From the NCBI GenBank assembly GCA_018780145.1, contig JADMKA010000089.1:1-64000 (forward strand): a stretch of 64,000 nucleotides of DNA, read 5' to 3'. The DNA comes from Vitreoscilla sp. (GTDB lineage: Bacteria; Pseudomonadota; Gammaproteobacteria; Burkholderiales; Burkholderiaceae_C). The notes below the pieces were generated by a model that was given only the letters and a program-made list of their open reading frames with translations, was not told the origin of the DNA and ran no database searches. Positions 27,901-64,000 of the stretch are shown in pieces (the first letter of the stretch is position 1; each line of letters starts with the position of its first letter). The position numbers and the translations under genes are program-made.

Positions 27901-28617
27901 CTACTGCTTGATAAGTCCCAGCGAAATGGCCTTCAACACCGCGACTTGCTTCGAGGACGCATCGAGCTTCCTGAAGATGTTGCGCAGGTGAAAGTTGACT
28001 GTGTGCTCACTCATGCCGAGCAGCTGCCCAGTCGCCCACGCCGACTTGCCTTCCATCGATCGCAGAAGCACCTCACGTTCACGCGGGGTGAGAGTAGGCG
28101 CAGGTGTCTTCGGGGGCTCTGGAGTAAGGAGACGTTGCGCGGCGTCTTGGCAATGGACCGCAAGGAGCTGGAGATCTGCCAGCATGCGAGTGATCTTTTG
28201 CTCGCTGCGCGGAAGCGGGCGCTCCCGATCAAGGCCCAGAAGAAATTGCTTGTTTCCTGGCAGGCGAAGCGCCACTGAAATCCCAGTTCGATACCCATAG
28301 GGCGCGGCGCGCTCCCACAGCTCCGGAGCCCCGGCCTGAACGTAGAACTTTTGGTCGTAGAGAAACGGCAGCCCGTGGGTCCGCAACTGGGTAAGGACCG
28401 GGTCCTTCTTCGAAATGTCCTTGTCAGCCGACAGCGAGGCAAAGTCCTCGGGTCTATTGCCCACATACAGGAAGTCTGTCTCACTACCTGGCCTTTCGAC
28501 CACAAGTACCGATGAGACCAGGCCGAAATCCATCGCGTGTGCGAAATCAATGAGTCGGCGGCGGAAGGTCGTTTTGTCCGCTGACTGACTTACGTCAAAA
28601 AAGTTCTGCAGCTGCAT
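27901..28617 (-). CDS. LuxR-family regulator 2
   Basis: A 238-residue AHL-type LuxR protein. The ligand domain (1-165) has FLYVGNRPEDF, the Asp-Pro pair in SKKDPVLTQLR, and GYRTGISVALRLPG, but the tryptophan usually following the Pro-x block is replaced (LPFLYDQ), hinting at a non-standard ligand. The C-terminal HTH is canonical: LTPREREVLLRSMEGKSAWA, then HTVNFHLRNIFRKLDASSK. It is divergent to the RsaM-like gene at 28747, with a weak dyad CCTACCAAGGTTGG at 28668-28681 in between that could be a second lux-box-like site. Confidence 0.92.
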   Translation of the reverse strand: MQLQNFFDVSQSADKTTFRRRLIDFAHAMDFGLVSSVLVVERPGSETDFLYVGNRPEDFASLSADKDISKKDPVLTQLRTHGLPFLYDQKFYVQAGAPELWERAAPYGYRTGISVALRLPGNKQFLLGLDRERPLPRSEQKITRMLADLQLLAVHCQDAAQRLLTPEPPKTPAPTLTPREREVLLRSMEGKSAWATGQLLGMSEHTVNFHLRNIFRKLDASSKQVAVLKAISLGLIKQ

Positions 28618-29564: not shown

Positions 29565-30299
29565 ATGACGAGCACGATGTTGCGGGAAGAGTTTCAAACC
29601 GTCTTGGCGGCCACCTCTGTCGAGGATTTCCGGGGCCAGCTCGTCCGCTACGCACACCAAGCTGGATTCGAGTTCGTGGGAGGCATGCTCGTCATAGATC
29701 ACGATGGAGGTCGGTCCGACTTCATCAATGTTGACAACATGCCCGAAGCCTATCGAAATGGGGCGGGTTGCCTTGCGTCGAACTATCGACGTGATCCCTT
29801 GATGCAGCATTGCAAGCGCAGCTCCTTGCCGATCGTCTGGGATCAGTCCACCTATGTGCGCGATGGCGCCGCTGATTTGTGGGAAGACCAAGCCGCATAC
29901 GGCTACCGCTCGGGAATGGCGGTCACCCTCCATTTGCCTCTGGGCATCCACTTCATGATGGGGCTCGACTGCAACCGGCATGGCCAGATTTCGGACCCGG
30001 AGCTCCGGGCACGTGTGGCCGACCTGCAGTTGTATGCAACTCATGCCTGCGAGACCGCTCAGCGGCTTTTCGGTGTGCACAAGCCCGAACACGATCCCAT
30101 GTGCGCGCTGAGTACGCGCGAGGTTGAAGCACTGAAATGGACTATGGAAGGGAAGACGGCTTGGGAGGTTGGGATGCTCCTGAATGTCGCTGAGCGAACT
30201 GCGAACAAGCATCTTCAGAACGCCATGCAGAAGCTGGATGCACTGACCAAGCATCAAGCGGCACTGAAGGCCTTGCGATTGGGACTACTGAGCCTGTAG
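29565..30299 (+). CDS. LuxR-family regulator 3
   Basis: A 244-residue AHL-type LuxR protein with the best-conserved pocket of the three: YRRDPLMQHCKRSSLPIVWDQ carries the Asp-Pro pair and the Trp, and GYRSGMAVTLHLPLG follows. The HTH reads LSTREVEALKWTMEGKTAWE and RTANKHLQNAMQKLDALTK. A GAGGATGAAG purine-rich stretch precedes ATG 29565. No luxI is seen, so it answers an imported, external or non-AHL signal unless the synthase lies elsewhere in the host. Confidence 0.92.
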   Translation: MTSTMLREEFQTVLAATSVEDFRGQLVRYAHQAGFEFVGGMLVIDHDGGRSDFINVDNMPEAYRNGAGCLASNYRRDPLMQHCKRSSLPIVWDQSTYVRDGAADLWEDQAAYGYRSGMAVTLHLPLGIHFMMGLDCNRHGQISDPELRARVADLQLYATHACETAQRLFGVHKPEHDPMCALSTREVEALKWTMEGKTAWEVGMLLNVAERTANKHLQNAMQKLDALTKHQAALKALRLGLLSL

Positions 30300-30634: not shown

Positions 30635-30914
30635 GTGCCCGCGAAACCATCCTGCCCTCGGCCCTCGCGGCCCACGGGCGTGCTGACCCCCAACCTGCTG
30701 CTCGAGGTCAACGATGACGCACCGGCTGCCTCCAAGGCGACCCTGCTGGTGGCCCACTGCCCGGGCGACACGGCCGCCCAGGCCGCCTGTGGTGCCGCCA
30801 AGGCCCGCCGATCAATAGCCTCGCCAACTCCGTCACCGCCGTGACCAAGCTGTCGATCGGACCGCTGGGCAGTTCCAAGCGGGCCAGCCCTCCGCAGTTC
30901 CCGGATCCGCTGCT
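30635..30914 (+). pseudogene. Gene remnant interrupted by the transposon (5' side)
   Basis: Two partly overlapping frames look coding but are shifted against each other: one reads GVLTPNLLLEVNDDAP, the other NSLANSVTAVTKLSIGPLG and continues to PPQFPDPLL at the insertion point. Removing the transposon joins this frame to 40366-40418 and gives an end AVSDHCPLVADMEL-stop, which resembles the C-terminus of endonuclease/exonuclease/phosphatase family proteins (SDHxPLVAxx). The gene was already damaged upstream. Confidence 0.45.
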
Positions 30915-30952
30915 GGGGTGATCTCGGTTTCGGTGTAATTCGTAGCGGTAGC
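30915..30952 (+). repeat. Left terminal inverted repeat of the Tn3-family element
   Basis: 38 bp, two mismatches to the right end. Subterminal similarity continues inward around GGGTAAACCCGGCA. Directly preceded by the CTGCT duplication. Confidence 0.9.
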
Positions 30953-31038
30953 CCACCCGGGTAAACCCGGCACGGCGTTTCCGCTCGCCACCGTCATAGT
31001 TCCAGCCCCGCGCCGCTGCGTCTCGCCGGAGCCCTGAC

Positions 31039-33981
31039 GTGCCGAGTTTCCATCTGCGGTTCGTTGGCCAAACCTCGCTGCCCAAGTCCATCTCGCAGGC
31101 GGACGTGGACGAGGCGTTCAGCCTCAGCGCCAAGGACGTCGTCGACGTCCGAGAGAAGTTCAGAAGCGCGCGGCTCGGCGCCGCTCTCCAACTCGTCTTC
31201 GTCCGTGCCACCGGCCGATCGCTCGACGCGGTATCCGGTGTCCCGCGCGTGCTGCTGCAATCGCTGTGCACGGCCCTGGGTCTCAACGAGACTGCCATCG
31301 CGTCTTTGAGATCGCTGTACAAGCGACCAGCGACGCGGTTTGCACACCAACGCTGGGCACGGGAGTACTGCGGGTTCTCACCCGCCGAAGAGACTGCGTT
31401 CGCTGAGCTTCGAAGCGCGCTGGTCACCCTTGCCGGCTCGGCATCGTCGGTCGATGACCTGGTCAAGCAGACCGAACTCTGGCTGTTCTGCAACAAGTAT
31501 CTGCTGCCTGGCGATCGCGCACTGCGCGACATCGCCCGCGAGGCGTTCTCGACGCAGGAGCGCAGTGCCCTCGAGATCGTGCGCCGACAGATCCCGGAGC
31601 GCGAACTTCGTGCAGCCATCACGAGGCTTCTCTCCAAGCGCAAGGGGCGCACGGGAGGAACGATGCTCGAGTGGTTGCGCACCCCGCCGGCCAAGCACGG
31701 GCAGGCGACGCTGAGCGCGACAACGCAGAAGGTCACGTACCTGAAGGCGCTGGGCGTGCACCAGTGGGACCTGTCCGCGATTCCCTCGGCGCGACTGCAA
31801 GCCTATGCCCAAGCCATCATCAACCGGCCACCGTTCGACACCGAGCGGCTGAGCGAGAACACCAAGGATCTGGAGGTCGCCTGCTTTCTCGTCGCCACAT
31901 TGCTGGAGCTGACCGATGCGACGGCTGAACTTGCCGGGCGTCGGGTGTGTGATTTCATCCGGCGTGCCGCGGGTCACGTGCAAGAGAAGCAGGCCCGCAG
32001 CGCGATCGATCTGCGCCAGGAGCGCGAACAGATCAGGACAGTGCTCTACAAAGAGGGTCCAACCGCGGAGCAGAAAATTGCCGCGCTGAAAGCACTGATT
32101 GCGCCGGAGAGCCAGGGCGACTGCAGTCGCGCCGCGCTCGTTCGTGGCGCGCTTGTTGAAGATGGGCGCAACATCACGGCGCTGCTGAACGCGGTTACCG
32201 TTCTCGAGTTGCACGGCGACGACACTGATCGGGCGATAAGGCAGGTCAAGACACTGCGGGAGCTCGCGCGGCACGGCGCCACCCAGTTGCCAAAGGACTT
32301 CGACTTGTCGGTGGCCGATCCTGTGTGGCACGATCTGTTGAGGGTGCCGGATCGCGGAAAGGCGCTCGCCGCGTTGAGGGCCTGCGCCGTTACCTCCATC
32401 CGCAAAGGCCTGAAGGGCGGCCGGCTGTGGCTCGCGCACAGCCGCAAACACCGGGATCGCGAAGACATGCTGATCCCGCCCACCGAGTGGCAGGCCAAGC
32501 GCCAGAGCTTGGTCAGTGCACTGAGCCTGACGGCGGAGCCGAAGAAGTACCTCGAACGGCTTCACACGAAGCTCAACGACTGCCTGGCAGCGCTGGCCCA
32601 AGCGGTCACCGAAGGCCGGGTGACGATCGATGCCGAGGGCCGCATGCATCTGCCTGCTCTGCATGCCGCAGACATCGACGCCGAGGCCGCGCGCAGCCGG
32701 GACGCGATGTTCGGCATCATCGGCCCGGTTCAGTTCGGCGACATGCTCGTCCAGGTCGACTCCCGGTCGAACTTCAGCGAGGCGATCCTCGGCCGCCGCG
32801 CGAATTCCGTGCAGGAGCTTGTCGCGGCGTACGGAGCGCTGCTGGCGCACGGCACGGAGAACGATGCCAAGGGCGTCGCTGCGATGGTGCCGGGCTTGGA
32901 GGTGTCTCACATCACCGCGGCGATGCGCACGATAGAAGCGACCGGTCGTCTGCGGCGGGCCAACGAACGCGTCGTGGCTTTTCAGCAGTCGTTTGCGATC
33001 GCGCTCAGTTGGGGCAACGGCGAAAGAGCCTCTGCGGACGCCATGTCGCTGGACGCCTCGCGGCACCTTTACACCGCCCGCCTCGACCCGCGACGCAAGA
33101 GCCCTGCGATGGGGGTCTATACGCACTACCTGGATTCGTATGGCCTGTTCTATGACCAGCCCATTGTGCTGAACGAGCGCCAAGCAGCCGCGGCTGTCCA
33201 CGGCGTGGAGGCGCACAACGCCACGCGCAGCGAGGACCGTCTCCGGCTGGCGCTGCTGGCCGTTGACACGCACGGCTATACGAACGCCGCCATGGCCGTG
33301 GCCAAGCTGCTGGGCTTCGACCTGTGCGTGCGCCTGCGCAACCTTTCCGAGCGGATGCTGTACTTGCCGGCGTGCATCGTGCTGCCTGACGCGCTCGCGC
33401 AGCTGAAGATCGGCCGCGTCAGCGAGCGCAAGATCAAGACAGGCTGGGACGAATTGCTGCGCCTGATTGCCTCGATCCGCGGCGGCCGGCTGACGGCCAA
33501 GGAAGCGTTGGACAAGCTCGGCAGCGCCGCCAAGGGCGATGCGCTGCACGCAGCGGCCGACGAACTCGGCAAGCTGTTGCGCACCATCTTCCTCTGCGAC
33601 TATTTCACCAAGCCCGACTTCCGCCGGGAACTCCACACGCTGCTGAACCGTGGTGAGTCCGCGCACCAGCTTCAGCGCGCCGTCTACCACGGCCGGATCG
33701 CTCCGGAGCGTGGCCGGCGTGGCGACGAGATGCGAGCCATCTCCGGCGCGCACGCGCTGCTGACCAACGTCGTCATCGCCTGGAACACGATGAAGATGCA
33801 GGAGGTGGTCGACCGCTGGCGCGTCCGGAGGCACCCGATCCGTGACGACTGGCTGCGCCGCATGGGGCCGGTGCACTTCGGGCACATCAACTTCAGGGGC
33901 ACCATCGCGTTCAAGATCGCCGAGTTCATCGATGCCCTCGTTCAACGCTCCACGCCACAGCGAGCCGGGACGACCAGATAG
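31039..33981 (+). CDS. tnpA: Tn3-family transposase
   Basis: A 980-residue protein starting at GTG, the normal size for Tn3 TnpA. The N-terminal half is the DNA-binding region that recognises the 38-bp ends. The catalytic half includes AVDTHGYTNAAMAVAKLLGF with a candidate DDE Asp (about residue 741) and LNRGESAHQLQRAV with a candidate Glu (about 877), then the conserved NVVIAWNTMKMQEVV end. It performs replicative transposition through a cointegrate, which the tyrosine recombinase at 38497-40194 would resolve. The gene is intact. The antisense strand has a long open frame of 855 codons, which is a shadow. Confidence 0.96.
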   Translation: MPSFHLRFVGQTSLPKSISQADVDEAFSLSAKDVVDVREKFRSARLGAALQLVFVRATGRSLDAVSGVPRVLLQSLCTALGLNETAIASLRSLYKRPATRFAHQRWAREYCGFSPAEETAFAELRSALVTLAGSASSVDDLVKQTELWLFCNKYLLPGDRALRDIAREAFSTQERSALEIVRRQIPERELRAAITRLLSKRKGRTGGTMLEWLRTPPAKHGQATLSATTQKVTYLKALGVHQWDLSAIPSARLQAYAQAIINRPPFDTERLSENTKDLEVACFLVATLLELTDATAELAGRRVCDFIRRAAGHVQEKQARSAIDLRQEREQIRTVLYKEGPTAEQKIAALKALIAPESQGDCSRAALVRGALVEDGRNITALLNAVTVLELHGDDTDRAIRQVKTLRELARHGATQLPKDFDLSVADPVWHDLLRVPDRGKALAALRACAVTSIRKGLKGGRLWLAHSRKHRDREDMLIPPTEWQAKRQSLVSALSLTAEPKKYLERLHTKLNDCLAALAQAVTEGRVTIDAEGRMHLPALHAADIDAEAARSRDAMFGIIGPVQFGDMLVQVDSRSNFSEAILGRRANSVQELVAAYGALLAHGTENDAKGVAAMVPGLEVSHITAAMRTIEATGRLRRANERVVAFQQSFAIALSWGNGERASADAMSLDASRHLYTARLDPRRKSPAMGVYTHYLDSYGLFYDQPIVLNERQAAAAVHGVEAHNATRSEDRLRLALLAVDTHGYTNAAMAVAKLLGFDLCVRLRNLSERMLYLPACIVLPDALAQLKIGRVSERKIKTGWDELLRLIASIRGGRLTAKEALDKLGSAAKGDALHAAADELGKLLRTIFLCDYFTKPDFRRELHTLLNRGESAHQLQRAVYHGRIAPERGRRGDEMRAISGAHALLTNVVIAWNTMKMQEVVDRWRVRRHPIRDDWLRRMGPVHFGHINFRGTIAFKIAEFIDALVQRSTPQRAGTTR

Positions 33982-34853
33982 ACCGGCCCATGGAATCGCT
34001 GCCGTTCATTGCCTACCGCTGCGATTTGCACGCGGACCGTGAGTGCCTGAGCACTTGGTGCAGCGTAAGTCGTTGATTGATCGGGGACGGAGCGCACGCT
34101 ACCGCTACGATTTGCACGCATCCCAAAGCGAGCGGCGTCGATCTGGCGGCCGCGAACCCAGAACGGTCAGTCGTGATTCCAGCAGCTGCCACCAGCGGTC
34201 GTTTAGAGGGCTGAGATGAAGGGGAAGCGGTCGCTCGCGCCGCGGCATGCGCGACGTTCTCTGCACGCCTCCCTTGAGAGGGAAGGCGCGCCAGGCAAAA
34301 AGGCGACAGGACCATCGTAACAGATAGTAACCTTCATTGCCGACCAAAAGAAGAGCGGCCTAACATCAAAAATAGGACTGCTCGCAAGCGTAATTGCCTG
34401 GGCGAAGTTGCGGAAACGCCGTGAGGCGTCAAGCGCACATTGGGCTTCCCGGCTGGCTGGAGTTAATTTTTCCAGGGAGGGAATATGTCCGAGCGTCGCG
34501 CGGTATGCGTTTTGCGCCGACACGTAGCGGTCCGCGAAATAGTGCAATTGGGACGCGTCGACTGGCGCATTCGCGGGCGATATCGCCCGATACGGAGCGC
34601 CCACGCTCTGACTGCGAATAAGCCAGTCACGTCAGACAACAACGTTTGCCCGGGGCCGCCCGTTCCTGGATTAGGGATCTCCGCGTCGCCACGCGAGTAC
34701 GGCCTAGGCGACAGGCACGAAGCAGCCATCACAAGCCAAACTGCGCGATCGCCGCCCGTCTAGCGATGAAGGGTGATCAAGCGCTATCCGGCGTGATCAA
34801 CGATTCAGCGCGTTGACCCGCTCTTGTTCAACGGCAAGAAAGAGGGAATTCTC
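33982..34853. other. Intergenic part of the transposon with internal end-like repeats
   Basis: About 870 bases between tnpA and the passenger genes. Two stretches, TACCGCTGCGATTTGCACGC near 34015 and TACCGCTACGATTTGCACGC near 34100, resemble the inner half of the terminal repeat (TACCGCTACGACTTGCACCG) but then diverge, so they may be end remnants or transposase-binding sites. A minus-strand frame at 34203-34604 (133 codons) and a plus-strand frame at 34485-34763 with GGGAGG before its ATG overlap each other; neither product is recognised and neither is called. Confidence 0.5.
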
Positions 34854-36341
34854 GTGAGCGACCCCATAGAAGTTTTTCGAGACTATCTTGGCTTTAGTCC
34901 ACTTGGCGGCGTGGTCTTGGTAAACAGTAGCGACTTGCCGGGTGACATCCCGACAAAGGTCGCAGAGGTCAACCCGCCCGATCCACCCCCTGACGGCTCG
35001 CCGGCCGGTAGAGGCAGGCTGGTATATCTGCCGTCCGGACGCCTTACTACCCCGGAGCTGGATTTATCCCAAGGGCAGAGCTTGTGTGGCGTTAAGGGGT
35101 CCACCATCCTCACGCTTGAAAGCGACGCCACGCTAACGAAACGCGATGTCAGTGGCGTTGGCGCGTACATCACTATCCGCGATGACTATTACGCCGAGGG
35201 AGGGATTGCTGGCCAAGGAGTTATCGAGGATCTGGACATCGACGCCAAGAATCTGGACACAGCAACCGGCACCGGTGTGACAAAATTCTATGGGTTATAT
35301 GCTCCGCCGCGAGACCCGGACCCCGACCACCATGCGAACCTGCATACCATTCGCAATGCGGCCGTCTACAACGCCAAGGACAACGGGATCCATTTTGACC
35401 TCGGCAATGATAAGTTGGTGTGCGATAGGATCCGCCAAGAAGGTGCCGGCGGAGTCGGCATTTACTTGGCAGGCGGCGATGTGAAGGCTAGGGCCGTTGG
35501 ATCTGCTTCTGTTGGCACTGCGCTATACGTCAGTGGCGCCGCAGTGGAAATTGACCAATTCGACCTTTGGCGTAGCATAGACGCCAATGTGGATCAACCC
35601 ACACTGGACATCGTTGGTGGCGCTAACGGCTGTGTGATCAAGAGCGGCACCGTCGAGGGGTGGACGCGGTTCATTGGGAAGAATGAGGGTGAGGACCCCC
35701 CTCCTCCATTCGATCCGGAAAGCCCTGCCGCCAGCCACTATCTCAACAGCAAGGCTCAGTTCGCCTTTGTCCACTTTAAATACAGCAAGGACTTATTGCG
35801 AGCAGACCCCGATCCGACGTGCTACTTCGAAGCGCAGTCAGCAGACTTGGTAGAGCTGATTTCGTGCAAATTTGGAGTTAGTGGTACTGAAAAGCCCAAT
35901 GCCGGGCACACGTACGACTACCTAATCATGATTACCAACTCAAGCAACGATGCTAGCCGAAACGGATTGGTGAAGATATCCGGCGGTTCCGGGATGCTGC
36001 GTTATCTGGGCAGAGTAGATGGCAATCGAAATAGGATGTACATTGATGCTCTCAAGCACATTTGCAATGTGCCTAAGCGTCTGCTATTTGACTGGGGCCG
36101 AATGGGAACGGTCGAAATAGTCCCAAACTGGGCAGTAGACTCTAGTGATCCAATGATCCGCACCCATCTGCGCTGCGACGGAACGCAATACAACAAAGTG
36201 GACCAGCCATTTGGCTATTTGAATGTCGGGGCGTATCGAGGCGCCAATGTCACTCTGGACGATGGCATTGGGACATTTGATATGCCGAGGTTGCCAATAG
36301 TCTCAAGCGACTGCGTATTTGCAATTCGCGCCATTCCATAA
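34854..36341 (+). CDS. Parallel beta-helix (tailspike/pectate-lyase-like) protein, Tn passenger
   Basis: GTG 34854 with GAGGG upstream is preferred to TTG 34824. The 495-residue product has the look of a right-handed parallel beta-helix: short strands with Asn/Asp/Gly turns (LVYLPSGRLTTPELDLSQGQ, IRNAAVYNAKDNGIHFDLGN, GGVGIYLAGGDVKA, GCVIKSGTVEGW). Such folds occur in phage tailspikes and polysaccharide lyases. There is no signal peptide, so a secreted enzyme is unlikely without another export route; a particle- or tail-associated protein is more consistent. The region is AT-richer than its surroundings, a sign of separate origin. Catalytic residues cannot be assigned. Confidence 0.6.
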   Translation: MSDPIEVFRDYLGFSPLGGVVLVNSSDLPGDIPTKVAEVNPPDPPPDGSPAGRGRLVYLPSGRLTTPELDLSQGQSLCGVKGSTILTLESDATLTKRDVSGVGAYITIRDDYYAEGGIAGQGVIEDLDIDAKNLDTATGTGVTKFYGLYAPPRDPDPDHHANLHTIRNAAVYNAKDNGIHFDLGNDKLVCDRIRQEGAGGVGIYLAGGDVKARAVGSASVGTALYVSGAAVEIDQFDLWRSIDANVDQPTLDIVGGANGCVIKSGTVEGWTRFIGKNEGEDPPPPFDPESPAASHYLNSKAQFAFVHFKYSKDLLRADPDPTCYFEAQSADLVELISCKFGVSGTEKPNAGHTYDYLIMITNSSNDASRNGLVKISGGSGMLRYLGRVDGNRNRMYIDALKHICNVPKRLLFDWGRMGTVEIVPNWAVDSSDPMIRTHLRCDGTQYNKVDQPFGYLNVGAYRGANVTLDDGIGTFDMPRLPIVSSDCVFAIRAIP

Positions 36342-36360
36342 TTCATTTAGAAAGACAGCC

Positions 36361-36984
36361 ATGGCAGATTTTCAACTCGCCTCTGCGCTTTTCGCTAGTG
36401 AGTCGGTTATTCGGGGGACCATTGGTCTGTATCCCAATCAGCGTGCCTACGCATCAGATCAAAATGGCGCAGAAATGTTTTGGGACGATACAAATGACAA
36501 GTGGCTTTGGGCGACCCACGCACAAAGCATTTTTCGCTGGTATGCCGATGTCAATTCTACGTCATCCACCGCCGTTCAGGAGCTAAAAACTTATCCTAGC
36601 CTACCGATTTTGGCTAGCGAAGATTCGCTCAAGATATCGGCCCTTTTTACACTCGGCGCCGCCGCCACCAAGATATTGCTCAAGTTCGGTCCTGCCGTGT
36701 CGCTCGTTGATGCGTATTCCATGACCGTGAATGCCACCGGTGACCTTGGCCTCAACTTGGAGGCCGAAATGCGCAACTATGGAGACGCTTCCCACCAGAA
36801 GTGGTCGACTCCAGATCGACGTGTTTTAGGCGTTGTCAGTAATGGCAGCGGTCCAACGCTCACCACAAAAAATACAGGCATTACGGGAAATACACTTGGC
36901 ATTTACTGCGACAAAGTCGCATCGGGTGATGTCGTCGTGATGAACTGGTTTGAAGTATCAGTCTGCGGCGGCGGGATTCCGTGA
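36361..36984 (+). CDS. Uncharacterised protein, tail-tip-like, Tn passenger
   Basis: ATG 36361 follows the beta-helix gene by 19 bases with AGAAAGA upstream. The 207-residue protein has an N-terminal stretch IGLYPNQRAYASDQNGAEMFWDDTNDKWLWATHAQ, written here only in part as GAEMFWDDTNDKW, recalling display or tail proteins that begin with a small anchoring motif, then a beta-rich body ending in a Gly/Cys tail (WFEVSVCGGG). No family is recognised with certainty. It is probably co-transcribed with the beta-helix gene and may form part of the same structure. Confidence 0.5.
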   Translation: MADFQLASALFASESVIRGTIGLYPNQRAYASDQNGAEMFWDDTNDKWLWATHAQSIFRWYADVNSTSSTAVQELKTYPSLPILASEDSLKISALFTLGAAATKILLKFGPAVSLVDAYSMTVNATGDLGLNLEAEMRNYGDASHQKWSTPDRRVLGVVSNGSGPTLTTKNTGITGNTLGIYCDKVASGDVVVMNWFEVSVCGGGIP

Positions 36985-37104
36985 TTCCACTTTCGCGCTT
37001 CGGAGGCTCAACTTGGGGGGTGGTCTCCATCGCCTAGGAGGCGTGTAATTGCATTCCTGCGAACTTTGTCCATCCGACGAAGCCGCTGCCTCTGGGAGAC
37101 ATAC

Positions 37105-38289
37105 ATGACAGTCTACTTTCGTGCGGTTTTCGCTGCAACGTGCGCCGCTGCCGCCATTGCGATGCCCGCGACGGCAGGTACCGGCCGCATCACGCTCAAC
37201 GACACCGGTATGACGCAATGCATTGACCACCACAAGGATTGGTCCTCGGATTGCACCAAGAGCCGACAGGATGCCGCCGACGGGCGCGACGCGGATGTCA
37301 ACATTCCGGACGATGGTGCAGCGGGATTCAGCTTTCAAAAGGTCTGTCGGTCCGGCCAGATGGCAGGGGATGGAAGTTGCCCTGTCGATCCGCCCCTCGG
37401 CAGCGGACCTGACGACTGGGGCTGCGTCTATGACAACGTCACCCAACTGACGTGGGAGGCCAAGACTGATGACAGCGGGATGCATGACTACCAGCGCTTC
37501 TACACCAACAAGGGCGAGAAGGCCCGTGGTGACAGCTCCGATGTTGCCTGGCTGGTCGACGCTACAAACGCCGAGACTCTGTGCGGTGCAACAAACTGGC
37601 GCTTGCCGGGTGTACTGGAACTCCAGTCAATCGTTGCCTATGGCAACGGCGCCCCCGGCATGCCATATCCTTGGATTGATCCCACCTTCTTCATTTACAC
37701 GTTGGGCGGTCATGCTTGGACGAGTGTCGAGGACGTTCACGAGCACAGATTTGTTTGGTATGTCCATTTCGGCAATGGCCGCGTTAGCTCCGATGCCCGC
37801 TTCAAACCCTATGGGGTTCGCCTCGTGCATAACCTCACCGCACAAGGCCAGGCGTCGCTGGGCAAGGCTCGATTTATCCCTTCGCCAGACGGCACGGAAG
37901 TGACGGATATCATGACTGGCTTGGCGTGGCGACGCTGCGCGGAGGGCATGGCTTGGAACAACGATGCACAGACCTGCGACGGCCTTGCGACCTTGTTTGA
38001 CTGGCAGGACGCACTGGACCACGCCCGAGCTAATCACGAGGGTGGATGGCGCATACCTAACATCAAGGAACTCTTAAGCCTTGCCAATCACAAGAAGAGG
38101 CACCAAACTCTCGATGAGTTAGCTTTTCCGAATTCACCGCTTAGCTTCCTTTCTTCGACAGCGGTCGATAGTAATGGGGACGTGTTCGTGAAGTACGTTG
38201 GATTCACTAAAGGCTCTGTTGAAGAACGGGCCGCCTACAACAACAACGCGCCCCTACCACTGCGCTTTGTACGCCGCGGCCGCGAATGA
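37105..38289 (+). CDS. Secreted DUF1566 (Lcl-like) protein with two domains, Tn passenger
   Basis: ATG 37105 with GGGAG upstream. The 394-residue protein has a signal peptide (cleavage after ATA or TAG, residue about 22). Two tandem DUF1566 domains follow: LTWEAKTDDSGMHDY ... TNWRLPGVLELQSIVAYG in the first, and GLAWRRCAEGMAWN ... GWRIPNIKELLSLANHKK in the second, each ending with YGVRLVHN or LRFVRRG. The domain has a C-type-lectin/FGE-like fold and occurs in surface and adhesion proteins. Its link to the two neighbours is their joint presence in one transposon. Confidence 0.75.
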   Translation: MTVYFRAVFAATCAAAAIAMPATAGTGRITLNDTGMTQCIDHHKDWSSDCTKSRQDAADGRDADVNIPDDGAAGFSFQKVCRSGQMAGDGSCPVDPPLGSGPDDWGCVYDNVTQLTWEAKTDDSGMHDYQRFYTNKGEKARGDSSDVAWLVDATNAETLCGATNWRLPGVLELQSIVAYGNGAPGMPYPWIDPTFFIYTLGGHAWTSVEDVHEHRFVWYVHFGNGRVSSDARFKPYGVRLVHNLTAQGQASLGKARFIPSPDGTEVTDIMTGLAWRRCAEGMAWNNDAQTCDGLATLFDWQDALDHARANHEGGWRIPNIKELLSLANHKKRHQTLDELAFPNSPLSFLSSTAVDSNGDVFVKYVGFTKGSVEERAAYNNNAPLPLRFVRRGRE

Positions 38290-38439
38290 ACCCTGATGGC
38301 GCCGCCTTTAGGCTGAGGGCTTCTCCAGCAAGGCAAGGGCTTTAGCCCTTGCCTTTGGTCCGAGCGCAAGCCGCGGCGGCGCATCTTCCTCGAGCGGCGC
38401 GGTCTCAAGCTGAGACTGGCAGGCGTTGCCGAGAAGGTG

Positions 38440-38469
38440 CTATTGCGATAAGTCTTCTTATCGCAATAG
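38440..38469. other. Candidate recombination core site for the transposon recombinase
   Basis: A perfect 13-bp inverted repeat CTATTGCGATAAG / CTTATCGCAATAG with a 4-base centre, 28 bases upstream of the recombinase start. Tn3-family elements of the TnpI type keep such a core directly before the recombinase gene. It could also act as an operator for that gene. Confidence 0.55.
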
Positions 38470-38496
38470 GCATATTTTCTGCCTAAACTGGCGACC

Positions 38497-40194
38497 ATGA
38501 AAACGCGCCTGTCCTCGCCGGCAGAAGAGGTCGAAGCTGGAGGCCTTCCGGATGCAGCATCGCTGGCTGCATTGCGCGGCTGGTACGAAGGGCTCTCCAC
38601 CCGGGAGGCCGTTGTCCGATACCTCGGGCACACCAAGGCCGACGGCCAGTCTTCGCGCAGCATGCTTGGCGTCATTCGGCGCCAGCTGATCTTGCTGGCC
38701 AGGCGTAGGCACCGAGAGGATCTCGCCGCGCTGTTCGACCACCCGCTATCCGAGCGAAGCAAGCATGCCCATGCCGTGACACGCGCGATCGCGCTACTGC
38801 CGTCATTGCCGACGCCCGAACCTCTGATTGGCGATGACATCGCGCAGTGGCTGGAGCCGCGCGCAGTGCGCGCGCTGCTGGCCCAAGGCATCAGGACGCT
38901 CGCCGCGTTGACAGTCCGAATTCCGCGTCGGCGCCGGTGGTGGGCAGCAATTCCCGGTCTGGGCTCCGCGGGTGCTCGGCGCATTGAGGTCTTCTTCGCC
39001 AAGCACCCGCAGCTCACTGATCGTGCGCGAGCGCTGGTCATGACCGACGCGCCGCAGAGCATCCTGCCCTGGGAGCGCCTCGCTGTTCCAGATGAGGTCG
39101 ACGGGTCGCGCGGGACGTTTCGGGCGCCGCGATCGACGTGCACTCTGGGCGCGACCAATGACTACGAGGCCGTGCAGGCCTGGCTTGCGCTCCACGAGTC
39201 GGGAGCCACGCAACGCGCGTACCGCAAGGAGGCGGAGCGGCTGATCCTGTGGGCCATCATCGAGCGTGGACGCGCACTGTCGTCGCTGACCACGGAGGAC
39301 GCGGTGGCATACCGTGCCTTCCTTCGCCATCCCGCGCCACGCGGCCGCTGGGTCGGTCCGCCGCGCCCGCGCTCGTCGCCAGAATGGCGGCCGTTCGCTG
39401 GTGGCCTCTCGGCGCGCTCGGTGGCCTACTCCCTCTCGGTCCTGGGCGCCATGTACCGCTGGCTCATGCAGCAGCGCTACGTGCTCGCCAACCCTTTCGC
39501 CGGCATCAAGGTGCGCGGTGCGGCCCGTGTGTCGTCCCTGCCCGCCTCGAGGGTGTTCGCAGAAGGCGAGTGGTCGATGATCCAGACCGTGGCTGAGGGC
39601 TTGGAGTGGTCCTATGGCTGGGAGCCGGCCGCCGCCCAGCGGTTGCGCTTCTTGGTCGACTTCGCCTACGCGACGGGCCTGCGCGCCAGCGAGCTCGTGG
39701 GCGCCACGCTCGGCATGATCGAGGTGGATGCCGAAGGTGACCATTGGCTGCACCTCGTTGGCAAGGGGAGCAAGGCCGGCAAGGTCGCCCTGCCGCCACT
39801 GGCGCGCGCCGCCCTCGATCGCTACTTGGTCCAGCGCGGATTGCCGACGACACCGACGCGGTGGCAGCGGTCGACGCCGCTGGTGGGTAGCCTCGAACAG
39901 AACAGCGCGGCGGGGATCACGGCGACCCGGCTGGGGGCGATCACGAAGCGATTCTTTGCGCAAGTCGCGGAACTCATCCAGGACCAGAACCCGTCGACTG
40001 CGGAGAAGCTGCGGCGCGCCAGTCCCCATTGGATGCGTCACACGCACGCCACGCATGCGCTGGCGCGCGGCGCTGAGCTCACGACCGTGCGCGACAACCT
40101 GCGGCATGCGTCGCTGTCGACCACATCGATCTATTTGCACGGGGAAGAGGTCAAACGGGCGCGGCAGCTTGGGAAGGCGTTTGCTGCGCGGTGA
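38497..40194 (+). CDS. tnpI: Tyrosine recombinase (TnpI-type cointegrate resolvase)
   Basis: A 565-residue tyrosine recombinase with a long N-terminal extension (about 200 residues, including a helix-hairpin-like IPGLGSAGARRIEVFF). Core residues are seen: Arg I in FAYATGLRASELVGA, Lys in VGKGSKAGKV, His-x-x-Arg in HWMRHTHATHALARG, the second His in DNLRHASLSTTS, and the nucleophile Tyr in SIYLHGEE. It lies just inside the right end of the Tn3-family element, beside a 13-bp inverted core, so resolution of transposition cointegrates is the likely job. An integron-like or phage integrase role is less likely. Confidence 0.85.
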   Translation: MKTRLSSPAEEVEAGGLPDAASLAALRGWYEGLSTREAVVRYLGHTKADGQSSRSMLGVIRRQLILLARRRHREDLAALFDHPLSERSKHAHAVTRAIALLPSLPTPEPLIGDDIAQWLEPRAVRALLAQGIRTLAALTVRIPRRRRWWAAIPGLGSAGARRIEVFFAKHPQLTDRARALVMTDAPQSILPWERLAVPDEVDGSRGTFRAPRSTCTLGATNDYEAVQAWLALHESGATQRAYRKEAERLILWAIIERGRALSSLTTEDAVAYRAFLRHPAPRGRWVGPPRPRSSPEWRPFAGGLSARSVAYSLSVLGAMYRWLMQQRYVLANPFAGIKVRGAARVSSLPASRVFAEGEWSMIQTVAEGLEWSYGWEPAAAQRLRFLVDFAYATGLRASELVGATLGMIEVDAEGDHWLHLVGKGSKAGKVALPPLARAALDRYLVQRGLPTTPTRWQRSTPLVGSLEQNSAAGITATRLGAITKRFFAQVAELIQDQNPSTAEKLRRASPHWMRHTHATHALARGAELTTVRDNLRHASLSTTSIYLHGEEVKRARQLGKAFAAR

Positions 40195-40327
40195 CGTCGA
40201 GCCCTGCGTGGCATTTCCCAATAGCGCGAAGGCGAGAGAGCGTTTGTGCAGCAGGCTGTTGCACAAATGTCGGGTACGCCTGCATGCTTCCTATCTCAGG
40301 CAATGCCTGCCGGGTTTACCCCCAGGC

Positions 40328-40365
40328 GCTACCGCTACGACTTGCACCGAAACCGAGATCACCCC
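40328..40365 (-). repeat. Right terminal inverted repeat of the Tn3-family element
   Basis: Inverted copy of the left end, followed by CTGCT at 40366-40370. The subterminal GGGTAAACCCGGCA-type stretch is also present inside this end. Confidence 0.9.
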
Positions 40366-40418
40366 CTGCTGGCCGTCTCGGACCACTGTCCGCTGGTCGC
40401 CGACATGGAACTCTGACG
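40366..40418 (+). pseudogene. 3' side of the gene split by the transposon
   Basis: Starts with the second CTGCT copy and reads in frame LLAVSDHCPLVADMEL followed by TGA. It continues the frame that stops at 30914. The SDHxPLVA pattern suggests an endonuclease/exonuclease/phosphatase C-terminus. Confidence 0.5.
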
Positions 40419-40520: not shown

Positions 40521-40811
40521 ATGCCGACACGCAACGTCGTTCTGAGCGACCATCAACAAGCGCTGGTAGAGGCCCTCGTGCAATCCGGTCGCTACCAGAA
40601 CGCCAGCGAGGTACTGCGCGAGGGACTGCGCCTCATTGAGGAACGCGAACGCATCGGCGAGGCCAAGCTGCACGCCTTGAAGCAAGCGGCACGGCAGGGC
40701 TGGGCAGATGTCTCCTCAGGGCGATACGCCGATGTGGGCGACGACCAGCTTGAGGAGTTCATTGGGCAACTAGGTCGCCGTGCTGCTCAGCTGGCCAAGT
40801 CCGCGAGTTGA
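40521..40811 (+). CDS. parD: ParD-family antitoxin
   Basis: ATG 40521 gives a 96-residue protein with the ribbon-helix-helix start MPTRNVVLSDHQQALVEALV, then SGRYQNASEVLREGLRLIEE, the ParD signature. The flexible C-terminus would wrap the toxin. ParD binds its own promoter and neutralises ParE, here encoded directly downstream with a one-base overlap. The pair gives post-segregational stability to the element. Confidence 0.92.
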   Translation: MPTRNVVLSDHQQALVEALVQSGRYQNASEVLREGLRLIEERERIGEAKLHALKQAARQGWADVSSGRYADVGDDQLEEFIGQLGRRAAQLAKSAS

Positions 40812-41176
40812 TGCTTCGTTATCGGCTGTCGGCCGCTGCCCAGGCCGATGTCATCAACATCCTCGCTTGGACGCACGAGCAATTCGGCGAGGCCGCCCGA
40901 CTTCGCTACGAGAGCCTGATCGTCGCAGCACTTCGAGACGTGGCGACACAGCCTGACCGGCCGGGCAGCATCGCGCGGGTCGAACTCGGCAAGGGTGTGA
41001 GATCGTGGCACCTGCGGCTGAGCCGGGATCACGTGGCAACGGGTTTGGAGATGGTCCGCCGGCCGCGCCACTTTTTGGTTTACCGAGTTGAACCCTCCCT
41101 TCTCGTGATCGGCCGGGTGCTGCACGACGCCATGGAGCTGGAGCAGCACTTGGACACCGATACGACCTGGGAATAG
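40811..41176 (+). CDS. parE: ParE/RelE-superfamily toxin
   Basis: A 121-residue toxin starting at ATG 40811, sharing one base with the parD stop. The RelE-fold pattern is clear: LSAAAQADVINILAWTHEQFG, then ARLRYESLIVAALRDVA and the C-terminal HFLVYRVEPSLLVIGRVLHD with the basic/aromatic strand of ParE proteins. ParE poisons DNA gyrase when not bound by ParD. Confidence 0.92.
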   Translation: MLRYRLSAAAQADVINILAWTHEQFGEAARLRYESLIVAALRDVATQPDRPGSIARVELGKGVRSWHLRLSRDHVATGLEMVRRPRHFLVYRVEPSLLVIGRVLHDAMELEQHLDTDTTWE

Positions 41177-63058: not shown

Positions 63059-64000
63059 CTACCCCTCCGCAAACGCCTTCTCCATCGCCGCCTGGCGTCT
63101 CTCCATCTGCGCCCGGTAGTACCTCGCCGTCGTGCGCGGATCAGCCTGCCCCAGGTTCTCCTGCAGGATGTCGGGCGGCACCTCCCTCTCGGCTGCCCTC
63201 GTGGCATACGTGTGCCGAAGCCAATGCATCGAAGAACGCAGCGCCTGCTCCCTCTCATCCAACGACAGCCGGCTCGCCTTAATGGCCCGGTTGACAAACC
63301 GCGTGAAGGTCTGGTGCAGCGCCTGGTAGGAGATTGGCGCCGAACGATCGTCCAGTGCAGCCAGCAGCGGGGTCTCGCCGGGGTCATCGTCGAAGTCCCC
63401 GCCTCTGGCTTTGAAGTACACCCGCGTCGCGTCGATCGCGACCTTCGGCACAGGCACCAGCCGGTTCCTGCGGCCCTTGCCATGCACCCGGATCACCCAC
63501 CCGCTGGGCCTCTCGACCAAGTGCCGGCGCTCGGCGCGCAGCAGTTCGGCGGCACGCAGGCCCACCGCCTGTTCGAAGACGCAGAGCCAACGAAGGCGAT
63601 CCGTCGACGCCGATGTTGATCCGGCCAGGTGGCCGACCAGCGCAGCCCACGCCGCCGGCGTGAACGCTCGTGAGGTGGCGTCCCCAGTATCCCCGGCGAG
63701 CTCGTCATCACCGAGTTTTCGGTTGACGAGGATCCACGGGTTGCCGGCCAGGTACTGGGCTTGGACCAGCCAAGCGTAGAGGGAACCCAGGATGTTGAGC
63801 GCCAGCTGCCGGCTGGCGAGTGTCAGCTGGCCCTTGAACGGCGCCCAGCCGGGCGCCATGCGCTCGACCCGGCGCCGGCTGATCCACTGGGGTGGGATGC
63901 TGGCCAGGAAGTCGATGTAGGCCCGGCAGTCCTCGGCTGTCGCGTCCGACAGCGCCTTGCGCCGCTCCAGCGCGCACCACAGCACGAAGCGCTCGGCTTC
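63059..64000 (-). CDS. Tyrosine recombinase/integrase (N-terminus outside the window)
   Basis: The minus frame is open to the window edge, so the start is missing. The visible 314 residues contain a SAM-like N-terminal domain (RAYIDFLASIPPQWISRRR, NILGSLYAWLVQAQYLAGNP) and the catalytic domain: Arg I in FEQAVGLRAAELLRAE, Lys in VHGKGRRNRLVPV, HxxR in MHWLRHTYATRAAE, a second motif with GQADPRTTARYYRAQME (Tyr). It could be the element integrase or belong to another transposon. No attachment site was found at its 3' end. Confidence 0.9.
   Translation of the reverse strand, partial: EAERFVLWCALERRKALSDATAEDCRAYIDFLASIPPQWISRRRVERMAPGWAPFKGQLTLASRQLALNILGSLYAWLVQAQYLAGNPWILVNRKLGDDELAGDTGDATSRAFTPAAWAALVGHLAGSTSASTDRLRWLCVFEQAVGLRAAELLRAERRHLVERPSGWVIRVHGKGRRNRLVPVPKVAIDATRVYFKARGGDFDDDPGETPLLAALDDRSAPISYQALHQTFTRFVNRAIKASRLSLDEREQALRSSMHWLRHTYATRAAEREVPPDILQENLGQADPRTTARYYRAQMERRQAAMEKAFAEG

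Follow-up and report, generated by a model that had tools for sequence, protein, structure and literature searches.

The window considered here is a stretch of 64,000 nucleotides (nt) from a draft genome of Vitreoscilla sp. (assembly GCA_018780145.1, contig JADMKA010000089.1, positions 1 to 64,000). Positions 30915–40365 of the window were found to be a complete Tn3-family transposon with both ends and the target duplication present, and three passenger genes on one strand sit between its transposase gene, tnpA, and the gene of a tyrosine recombinase (Table 1). In their order along the element the passengers are P0001, P0005 and P0002. A first-pass annotation, made from the sequence alone, had reported three open reading frames (ORFs) in this place, all of which were found, and had suggested that they may be a surface-modification, adhesion or phage-derived decoy module. 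P0001 and P0005 are very probably a phage-type spike gene and a phage-type knob gene that have become transposon cargo.

Table 1. Features of the transposon, with positions counted from the first letter of the window. aa, amino acids; GC, fraction of guanine plus cytosine.
Feature	Position	Strand	Remark
Left target-site duplication, CTGCT	30910–30914		Identical to 40366–40370
Left terminal inverted repeat	30915–30952	+	38 bp
tnpA, Tn3-family transposase	31039–33981	+	980 aa; among annotated relatives the IS882 type is nearest
Double box: inner half of the terminal repeat, present in two exact copies	34013–34031 and 34099–34117 (together 34013–34117)	-	86 bp apart
Stretch without recognisable gene	34120–34853		GC 0.60
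Passenger 1 (P0001), right-handed beta-helix, phage spike-like	34854–36341	+	495 aa; GTG start
Passenger 2 (P0005), phage knob-like, lectin-like jelly roll	36361–36984	+	207 aa
Passenger 3 (P0002), two Lcl_C (DUF1566) domains, host-type family	37105–38289	+	394 aa
Palindrome CTATTGCGATAAG-TCTT-CTTATCGCAATAG	38440–38469		Candidate recombination core, just 5' of the recombinase gene
DUF3701 tyrosine recombinase, Tn4401 TnpR type	38497–40194	+	68.5% identity
Right terminal inverted repeat	40328–40365	-	38 bp
Right target-site duplication, CTGCT	40366–40370

As is usual for members of the Tn3 family, the terminal repeats are about 38 bp long, begin with GGGG and are flanked at both ends of the element by a 5-bp target duplication. 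The two repeats are alike at 36 of 38 bases, and longer arms of 58 nt, 88% complementary, can be drawn at the ends. When the 38-bp repeat was sought in the whole genome with up to 3 mismatches, two sites were returned and both were the ends of this element. The tnpA product matched DDE_Tnp_Tn3 (PF01526, E 5.5e-98) and NCBIfam transpos_Tn3 (NF033527, 685.8 bits against a cut-off of 500). It is 56.8% identical to a transposase called IS882 from a Comamonadaceae plasmid, 47.6% identical to an IS882-family transposase of Cupriavidus necator and about 35% identical to IS1071. Although the transposase is alike, the element differs from those of the IS882/IS1071 type in that its ends also enclose a tyrosine recombinase and cargo. 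The recombinase matched the 'Tn3-like element Tn4401 family resolvase TnpR' over 97% coverage, and its DUF3701 domain is given as the mark of the Tn4401-type recombinase subgroup in the available extract of PMC8138268. Within the element it stands far to the right, behind the cargo. The likeness to Tn4401 does not extend to the passengers, none of which matched a beta-lactamase family, or indeed any resistance family, in Pfam; the usual cargo of Tn4401 is blaKPC.

Relatives of P0001 were confirmed in three viral contigs (L002, L003 and L004), with 50.9–53.4% identity over 459–462 aligned residues. The spikes of L003 and L004 are 90.2% identical to each other and the three contigs therefore represent two phage lineages. 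In all three a relative of P0005 directly follows the spike gene, with a gap of 17, 23 and 23 nt compared with 19 nt in the window. P0005 is 40.1% identical to the knob of L002 and 23.5–24.0% identical to the other two, and an independent search with its profile led to the same three viral contigs and no others. Of the pattern hits in viral contigs 3 of 7 were confirmed for P0001 and 3 of 95 for its profile, the identical three contigs in each case; 109 and 256 hits, respectively, in genome contigs gave no confirmed relative. The contig scans rest on short peptide patterns, by which distant relatives can be missed. In bacterial genomes P0001 or its profile was present in 1 of 300 in the order, 1 of 16 in the genus and 1 of 398 in the phylum, always the own genome, and the profile of P0005 was likewise found in 1 of 199 related genomes, again the own one. 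No match to P0001 was obtained at 1e-5 in annotated plasmids (72,556 records) or annotated phages (50,697 records), nor to P0005 at 0.01 in the annotated phages.

The virion-gene neighbourhood of the pair rests on two of the contigs, L002 and L003. In L002 the tested neighbours belong to portal, head-morphogenesis and virion structural families, and its portal protein is, among the matches listed, 38–41% identical to phage portal proteins, some of them annotated DUF1073. Two of the neighbours tested in L003 match structural-protein families while a third, of 1541 aa, matches none, and a neighbour there resembles a structural protein of Burkholderia phages that goes by the name of 'neck to tail adaptor' or 'virion-associated'. 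Judged by these genes, the phages bearing the pair look different from each other. P0001, unlike its two relatives tested in this way, sits in transposon cargo and not among virion genes. ORFs of at least 60 aa (overlap-filtered) from L002–L004 were compared with positions 33001–39000, and only the pair matched, apart from one 27-aa match (E 0.001) of a reverse-strand ORF. No other phage gene from these three contigs thus lies beside the pair; other phages were covered only via PHROGs, for the five transposon proteins.

Searches of Pfam, PHROGs and NCBIfam gave no match better than E 0.1 for either P0001 or P0005, and the two proteins were examined as predicted structures. The P0001 model, made with AlphaFold2 from 4 aligned rows, has a mean predicted local distance difference test (pLDDT) score of 53.5. 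Among the 50 matches listed it aligned with right-handed beta-helix proteins, namely tailspikes, lyases and epimerases, at Z 18–23 (VIA). Two of them stood near the top: the polysaccharide lyase RbmB gave Z 22.9 with a root-mean-square deviation (rmsd) of 3.4 over 307 aligned residues and the Sf6 tailspike Z 22.6 with an rmsd of 4.0 over 314; the tailspikes CBA120 TSP2 and HK620 gave Z 22.4 and 18.5. The predicted fold fits a beta-helix of the tailspike or polysaccharide-lyase type, as the first-pass annotation had suspected. P0001 differs from the phage tailspikes in that its profile has no PDB sequence match at E ≤ 1 and in that it lacks the N-terminal stretch of its phage relatives.

For P0005 the profile gave one weak match among PDB sequences (E 0.097). 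Its model, also built from 4 aligned rows but with a mean pLDDT of 67.6, aligned from residue 52 onwards to jelly rolls, with TNF/C1q-type domains first at Z 8–9.7. The TNF-like domain of Pgp3 gave Z 9.7 (rmsd 3.5, 120 aligned), the lectin BC2L-C gave Z 8.5 (rmsd 2.8, 109 aligned) and the phage capsule depolymerase 6tku gave Z 8.2 (rmsd 2.9, 102 aligned). P0005 is thus predicted to be a lectin-like jelly roll, perhaps of the TNF/C1q type, which came nearest. A search of BFVD gave 95 matches at E ≤ 0.001; among the 50 listed, 37 are named phage proteins and 4 carry the name of the major-tropism-determinant N-terminal domain. With these matches and the jelly roll, the earlier label of a small tail-tip-like protein is a fair one.

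The N-terminal stretch missing from P0001 differs in the phages between L002 and L003/L004. No trace of it was found anywhere in positions 33001–39000, and an in-frame stop lies at 34794. Because the N-terminal 92 residues of the L002 spike had no match in phages, a role of the stretch as a 'virion anchor' is deduced from its position only. In the phages the knob proteins open with hydrophobic segments that resemble signal peptides (best hydropathy over 10 residues 2.4–3.2); P0005 has none (1.35) and begins just past the point where those segments end. Either the transposon copies lost their N-terminal parts or the phage copies gained them. By reading, P0001 also begins without a clear signal peptide and P0002 begins with what reads like one, though the best hydropathy values of 1.98 and 1.99, a crude measure, do not separate the two. 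The lack of a clear signal peptide in the first two genes, as read, speaks against their simple display on the surface. As a separate observation, the signal-peptide-like starts of the phage knobs (L002 7864–8559, L003 9389–10042 and L004 1563–2216), which lie beside spikes, are odd for parts of a virion.

The missing export signals bear also on the idea that the cargo serves as a decoy or phage defence, in which free spikes would mask or destroy the receptor shared with phages that have such a spike themselves. The kinship with spike genes of phages and the carriage on a mobile element speak for such a role, but there is no evident route of export and the searches brought up no phage of this host that has this spike, and the idea is considered extremely unlikely.

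The third passenger has another background. P0002 matched PF07603 (Lcl_C) with 136.5 bits (cut-off 34.9) in two stretches and a whole-protein E of 6.7e-40, so that the double DUF1566 protein of the first-pass annotation is indeed present. Its nearest relatives are in its own genome, at 57, 52, 42 and 41% identity with one weaker match besides, and the closest of them also has two Lcl_C stretches. At E ≤ 0.001 a match was found in 35 of 100 related genomes and at 1e-20 in 2 of 398 genomes of the phylum, the own genome included both times; no relative was confirmed in viral contigs, and phmmer found none in the PDB at E ≤ 0.1. From these sequence comparisons P0002 is assigned to a host-type paralogue family unrelated to P0001 and P0005. 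The Lcl_C domain is that of the C-terminal part of the Legionella protein Lcl, for which binding of glycosaminoglycans is reported in the available extract of PMC11162425. P0002 differs from Lcl in having two copies of the domain and, by reading, no collagen-like stalk. It was considered as a target of a diversity-generating retroelement, and this was rejected as the genome, which is 96.5% complete, has no match to the reverse transcriptase family PF00078; a control search for the family was positive in 3 of 14 named genomes.

Given the host paralogues and the lack of a confirmed viral relative, the DUF1566 gene is not supported as part of a phage module, and the phage origin that the first-pass annotation had offered is supported for P0001 and P0005, present as a pair in three viral contigs, and not for P0002. 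The proposal that spike, knob and lectin cooperate as a glycan-directed module for surface modification or adhesion, spread by the transposon, can draw on the fact that all three are of a fold or family related to glycans (beta-helix lyase or tailspike, lectin-like jelly roll, and Lcl_C as in the extract of PMC11162425) and that they share one strand and a similarly low GC. Nevertheless the trio was found in no other genome or contig searched, P0002 has relatives of its own in the host genus, the phage contigs touch its region only through the 27-aa reverse-strand match, and the first two genes have no clear export signal. Such cooperation is very doubtful and it is unlikely that the trio evolved or works as a joint set. 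The opposite possibility named in the annotation, that of unrelated genes associated at random, turned out to be half right: P0002 is unrelated to its neighbours, but P0001 and P0005 are a real pair.

The passengers are, as had been noticed at first reading, richer in AT than the mobility genes: their GC is 0.547, 0.516 and 0.582 in order, compared with 0.657 for tnpA and 0.684 for the recombinase, and the corresponding third-position values are 0.605, 0.538 and 0.658 compared with 0.825 and 0.806. In the closest own-genome relative of P0002 the third-position GC is 0.878. The low GC common to all three suggests that they may have arrived jointly from a source of lower GC. The phage relatives of the pair have a third-position GC of 0.84–0.89, as against 0.54–0.61 in the window. 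For P0001 the difference is 0.26–0.28 at third positions and at most 0.04 at first and second positions; for P0005 it is about 0.31 at third positions and up to 0.07 at the others. Since unconstrained drift would alter all positions and the difference is concentrated at the third, it arose while the proteins were kept. No stop or frameshift interrupts either the 495 codons of P0001 or the 207 codons of P0005.

The same figures bear on the possibility that the arrangement is an artefact in which phage DNA was joined into a transposon contig during assembly. A draft genome of 280 contigs and a change of GC at the cargo could give rise to such a suspicion. However, two wrong joins would be needed inside an element with matching ends and a target duplication, and the pair does not have the third-position GC of its phage relatives, while P0002 shares the low value. 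An artefact of this kind is hardly credible.

The backbone of the element was compared with those in related genomes. A match to the recombinase at E ≤ 1e-80 was found in 6 of 199 of them, the own genome included, and all 6 also have a match to TnpA; the two lie on one contig in 5 of the 6 and on different contigs in G365. Sister elements in three genomes, G366, G311 and G325, can be read from end to end (10,991, 38,386 and 24,177 bp, respectively). Each has inverted repeats, tnpA on the left, the recombinase near the right end and other genes between them. The cargo is TctC and a TPR regulator in G366, mercury resistance (MerA/MerB/MerC/MerR) in G311 and a copper/heavy-metal ATPase in G325, so that metal resistance is carried by two of the three, and one extra ORF (DUF7685/7686/7713) stands between recombinase and right end in G366. 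The spike and knob cargo is unlike anything named in these elements, which agrees with the earlier remark that it is unusual. These three were the sisters counted; the TnpA relatives L050, L052 and L056–L061, viewed by their ORFs or for repeats and in the case of L050 also by Pfam, were left out. The genome G413 was rejected as a further sister owing to inverted order, absence of cargo and no terminal repeats being found: at L051 (G413:C15, 6876–9347) a recombinase (73%) and a double box lie inverted directly after a TnpA of 57%.

Some details of the sisters may be added. The G366 element (L053, G366:C75) fills its 10,991-bp contig precisely from one end to the other, with ends alike at 37 of 38 bases, as expected if several copies had collapsed during assembly. 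The element of G311 (L054, L077 and L078; G311:C70, 47858–86243; 38.4 kb) has the same layout, a 5-bp target repeat GAGCC and, besides mercury resistance, ORFs that by eye resemble cobalamin synthesis genes. A target duplication was looked for around the G325 element and none was seen.

Two further kinds of repeat were seen in these elements. With up to 7 mismatches the palindrome pattern was found 5' of the recombinase in G413 (3 mismatches) and in G311 and G325 (6 each); it gave no site in G366, where reading showed an imperfect inverted repeat with a 6-bp spacer in the equivalent place. The palindrome of the window and the repeats of these four genomes (that of G366 by reading) share one form: a 6-bp spacer stands between an arm that ends in TAA and another that starts with TTA. 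The letters of the arms differ from element to element. A form that is kept while its letters vary would fit a recombination core that changes along with its recombinase. The second repeat is the double box. At the right ends of all three sisters (L053, L054/L077 and L055/L079) the inner part of the terminal repeat occurs twice, at a spacing of 84–85 bp, whereas in the window the double box, with its spacing of 86 bp, directly follows tnpA and the true right end has a single copy. Exact copies of the inner repeat in the element number 4, two of which are the ends that gave the pattern, and 0 were found in 100 simulated sequences. The double boxes are perhaps binding sites for TnpA or the recombinase, or else a former right end. 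The cargo thus sits between an apparent former right end and the present one, an arrangement that would fit the use of an end farther away, with adjoining DNA taken up in the process. A third match to the inner repeat at 38254–38272, in the end of the DUF1566 gene, has 3 mismatches and was set aside, as 9 of 100 order-1 Markov sequences match that well.

The explanation preferred here, and thought probable, is that the element is a Tn3-family transposon whose cargo can be exchanged in a slot between tnpA and the Tn4401-type recombinase, the slot holding a phage-derived spike and knob pair together with an unrelated host-type DUF1566 gene. TnpA would copy the unit into a new site as a cointegrate, the recombinase would resolve the cointegrate at the palindrome 5' of its gene, and the cargo would have entered the element as adjacent DNA. 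P0001 and P0005 may still bind surface polysaccharide, probably as soluble trimers, and P0001 might, with less certainty, cleave it. With neither the N-terminal stretch of the phage proteins nor a clear signal peptide, both would come into action only once the cell has lysed or on the particle of a partner. P0002 would act separately and outside the cell as a lectin-like protein. Retention of glycan binding by the pair is plausible, with even chances; that the host makes use of the pair is doubtful.

Several observations weigh against this explanation. A single copy of the transposon was found, in one draft genome. The model of P0001 is of low confidence and that of P0005 middling, each from 4 rows only. 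The BFVD matches of P0001 are phage beta-helix, pectate-lyase and tailspike proteins but none reaches E ≤ 0.001, and for P0005 legume lectins, CBM22 and IBDV VP2 follow at about Z 8, within some 2 Z of the best match. In the shift of composition either side may have changed, and the shift may predate the capture. No sigma-70-type promoter-like site was found 5' of the passengers, the single hit lying inside gene 1 and shuffled sequences averaging 2.6 hits. As P0001 and P0005 are without an evident route to the surface, a working function for them is putative.

A rival explanation is that the pair is idle debris: a prophage fragment caught by one faulty or one-ended transposition, which would serve neither the host nor the transposon and be still intact only because little time has passed since the capture. 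The pair occurs once among the genomes searched, the phage N-terminal stretch and a signal-peptide-like start are absent, there is no good promoter match, and the double box that follows tnpA, which resembles an old right end, is a sign that DNA past a former end was taken along. On the other hand both reading frames are free of stops and frameshifts, no further gene of the three phage contigs adjoins the pair, so the fragment would have to be the pair and little else, and the pair departs in composition from its relatives in phages chiefly at the third codon position. Idle debris is considered unlikely, though a serious contender, and a transposon with exchangeable cargo remains the explanation preferred. 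A bolder extension of the latter is that a Tn3-family transposon ferries cassettes for phage receptor recognition that are free of virion anchor and export signal. The pair would be passed from one bacterium to another, and might even return to prophages, to serve as a soluble tool acting on glycans or as a spare cassette for host range. The phage settings of the pair, downstream of portal and head genes in one case and beside a neck-type structural gene in another, lie behind this suggestion, which is put forward as speculative and improbable.

According to the available extract of PMC7157771, the known passengers of Tn3-family elements are resistance, metal, catabolic and virulence genes. 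A close parallel there is provided by TnXax1 and the minimal insertion cassettes of Xanthomonas, which are also of the Tn3 family and carry non-resistance passengers (xopE, mlt); they differ in having a TnpS/TnpT resolvase and plant-virulence passengers, and no phage spike pair is described for them in that extract. A search of the literature by title, covering few subscription journals, turned up no Tn3 element described with a phage spike pair as its cargo. The present case is one of a new kind of cargo inside a known kind of element. A transposon loaded with spike and knob genes would mean one more way for phage genes of receptor recognition to pass out of the phage pool and be carried about by transposons, and the pair would offer a defined test case for bacterial use of loose phage spikes. 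The sisters outline a cargo-swapping set of transposons with an IS882-like TnpA and a Tn4401-type recombinase, useful for tracing the origin of Tn4401-like backbones.

The stretch between the double box and P0001 was searched for gene remnants: its three ORFs matched no Pfam family and the ORFs of L002–L004 gave no match there. Outside the transposon, a ParD/ParE toxin-antitoxin pair lies just beyond the right end (40521–41176) and two LuxR-type regulators with autoinducer-binding domains lie near the left end (27901–28617, minus strand, and 29565–30299, plus strand). A second tyrosine recombinase, 33% identical to that of the transposon, stands at the edge of the window (63068–64000, minus strand).

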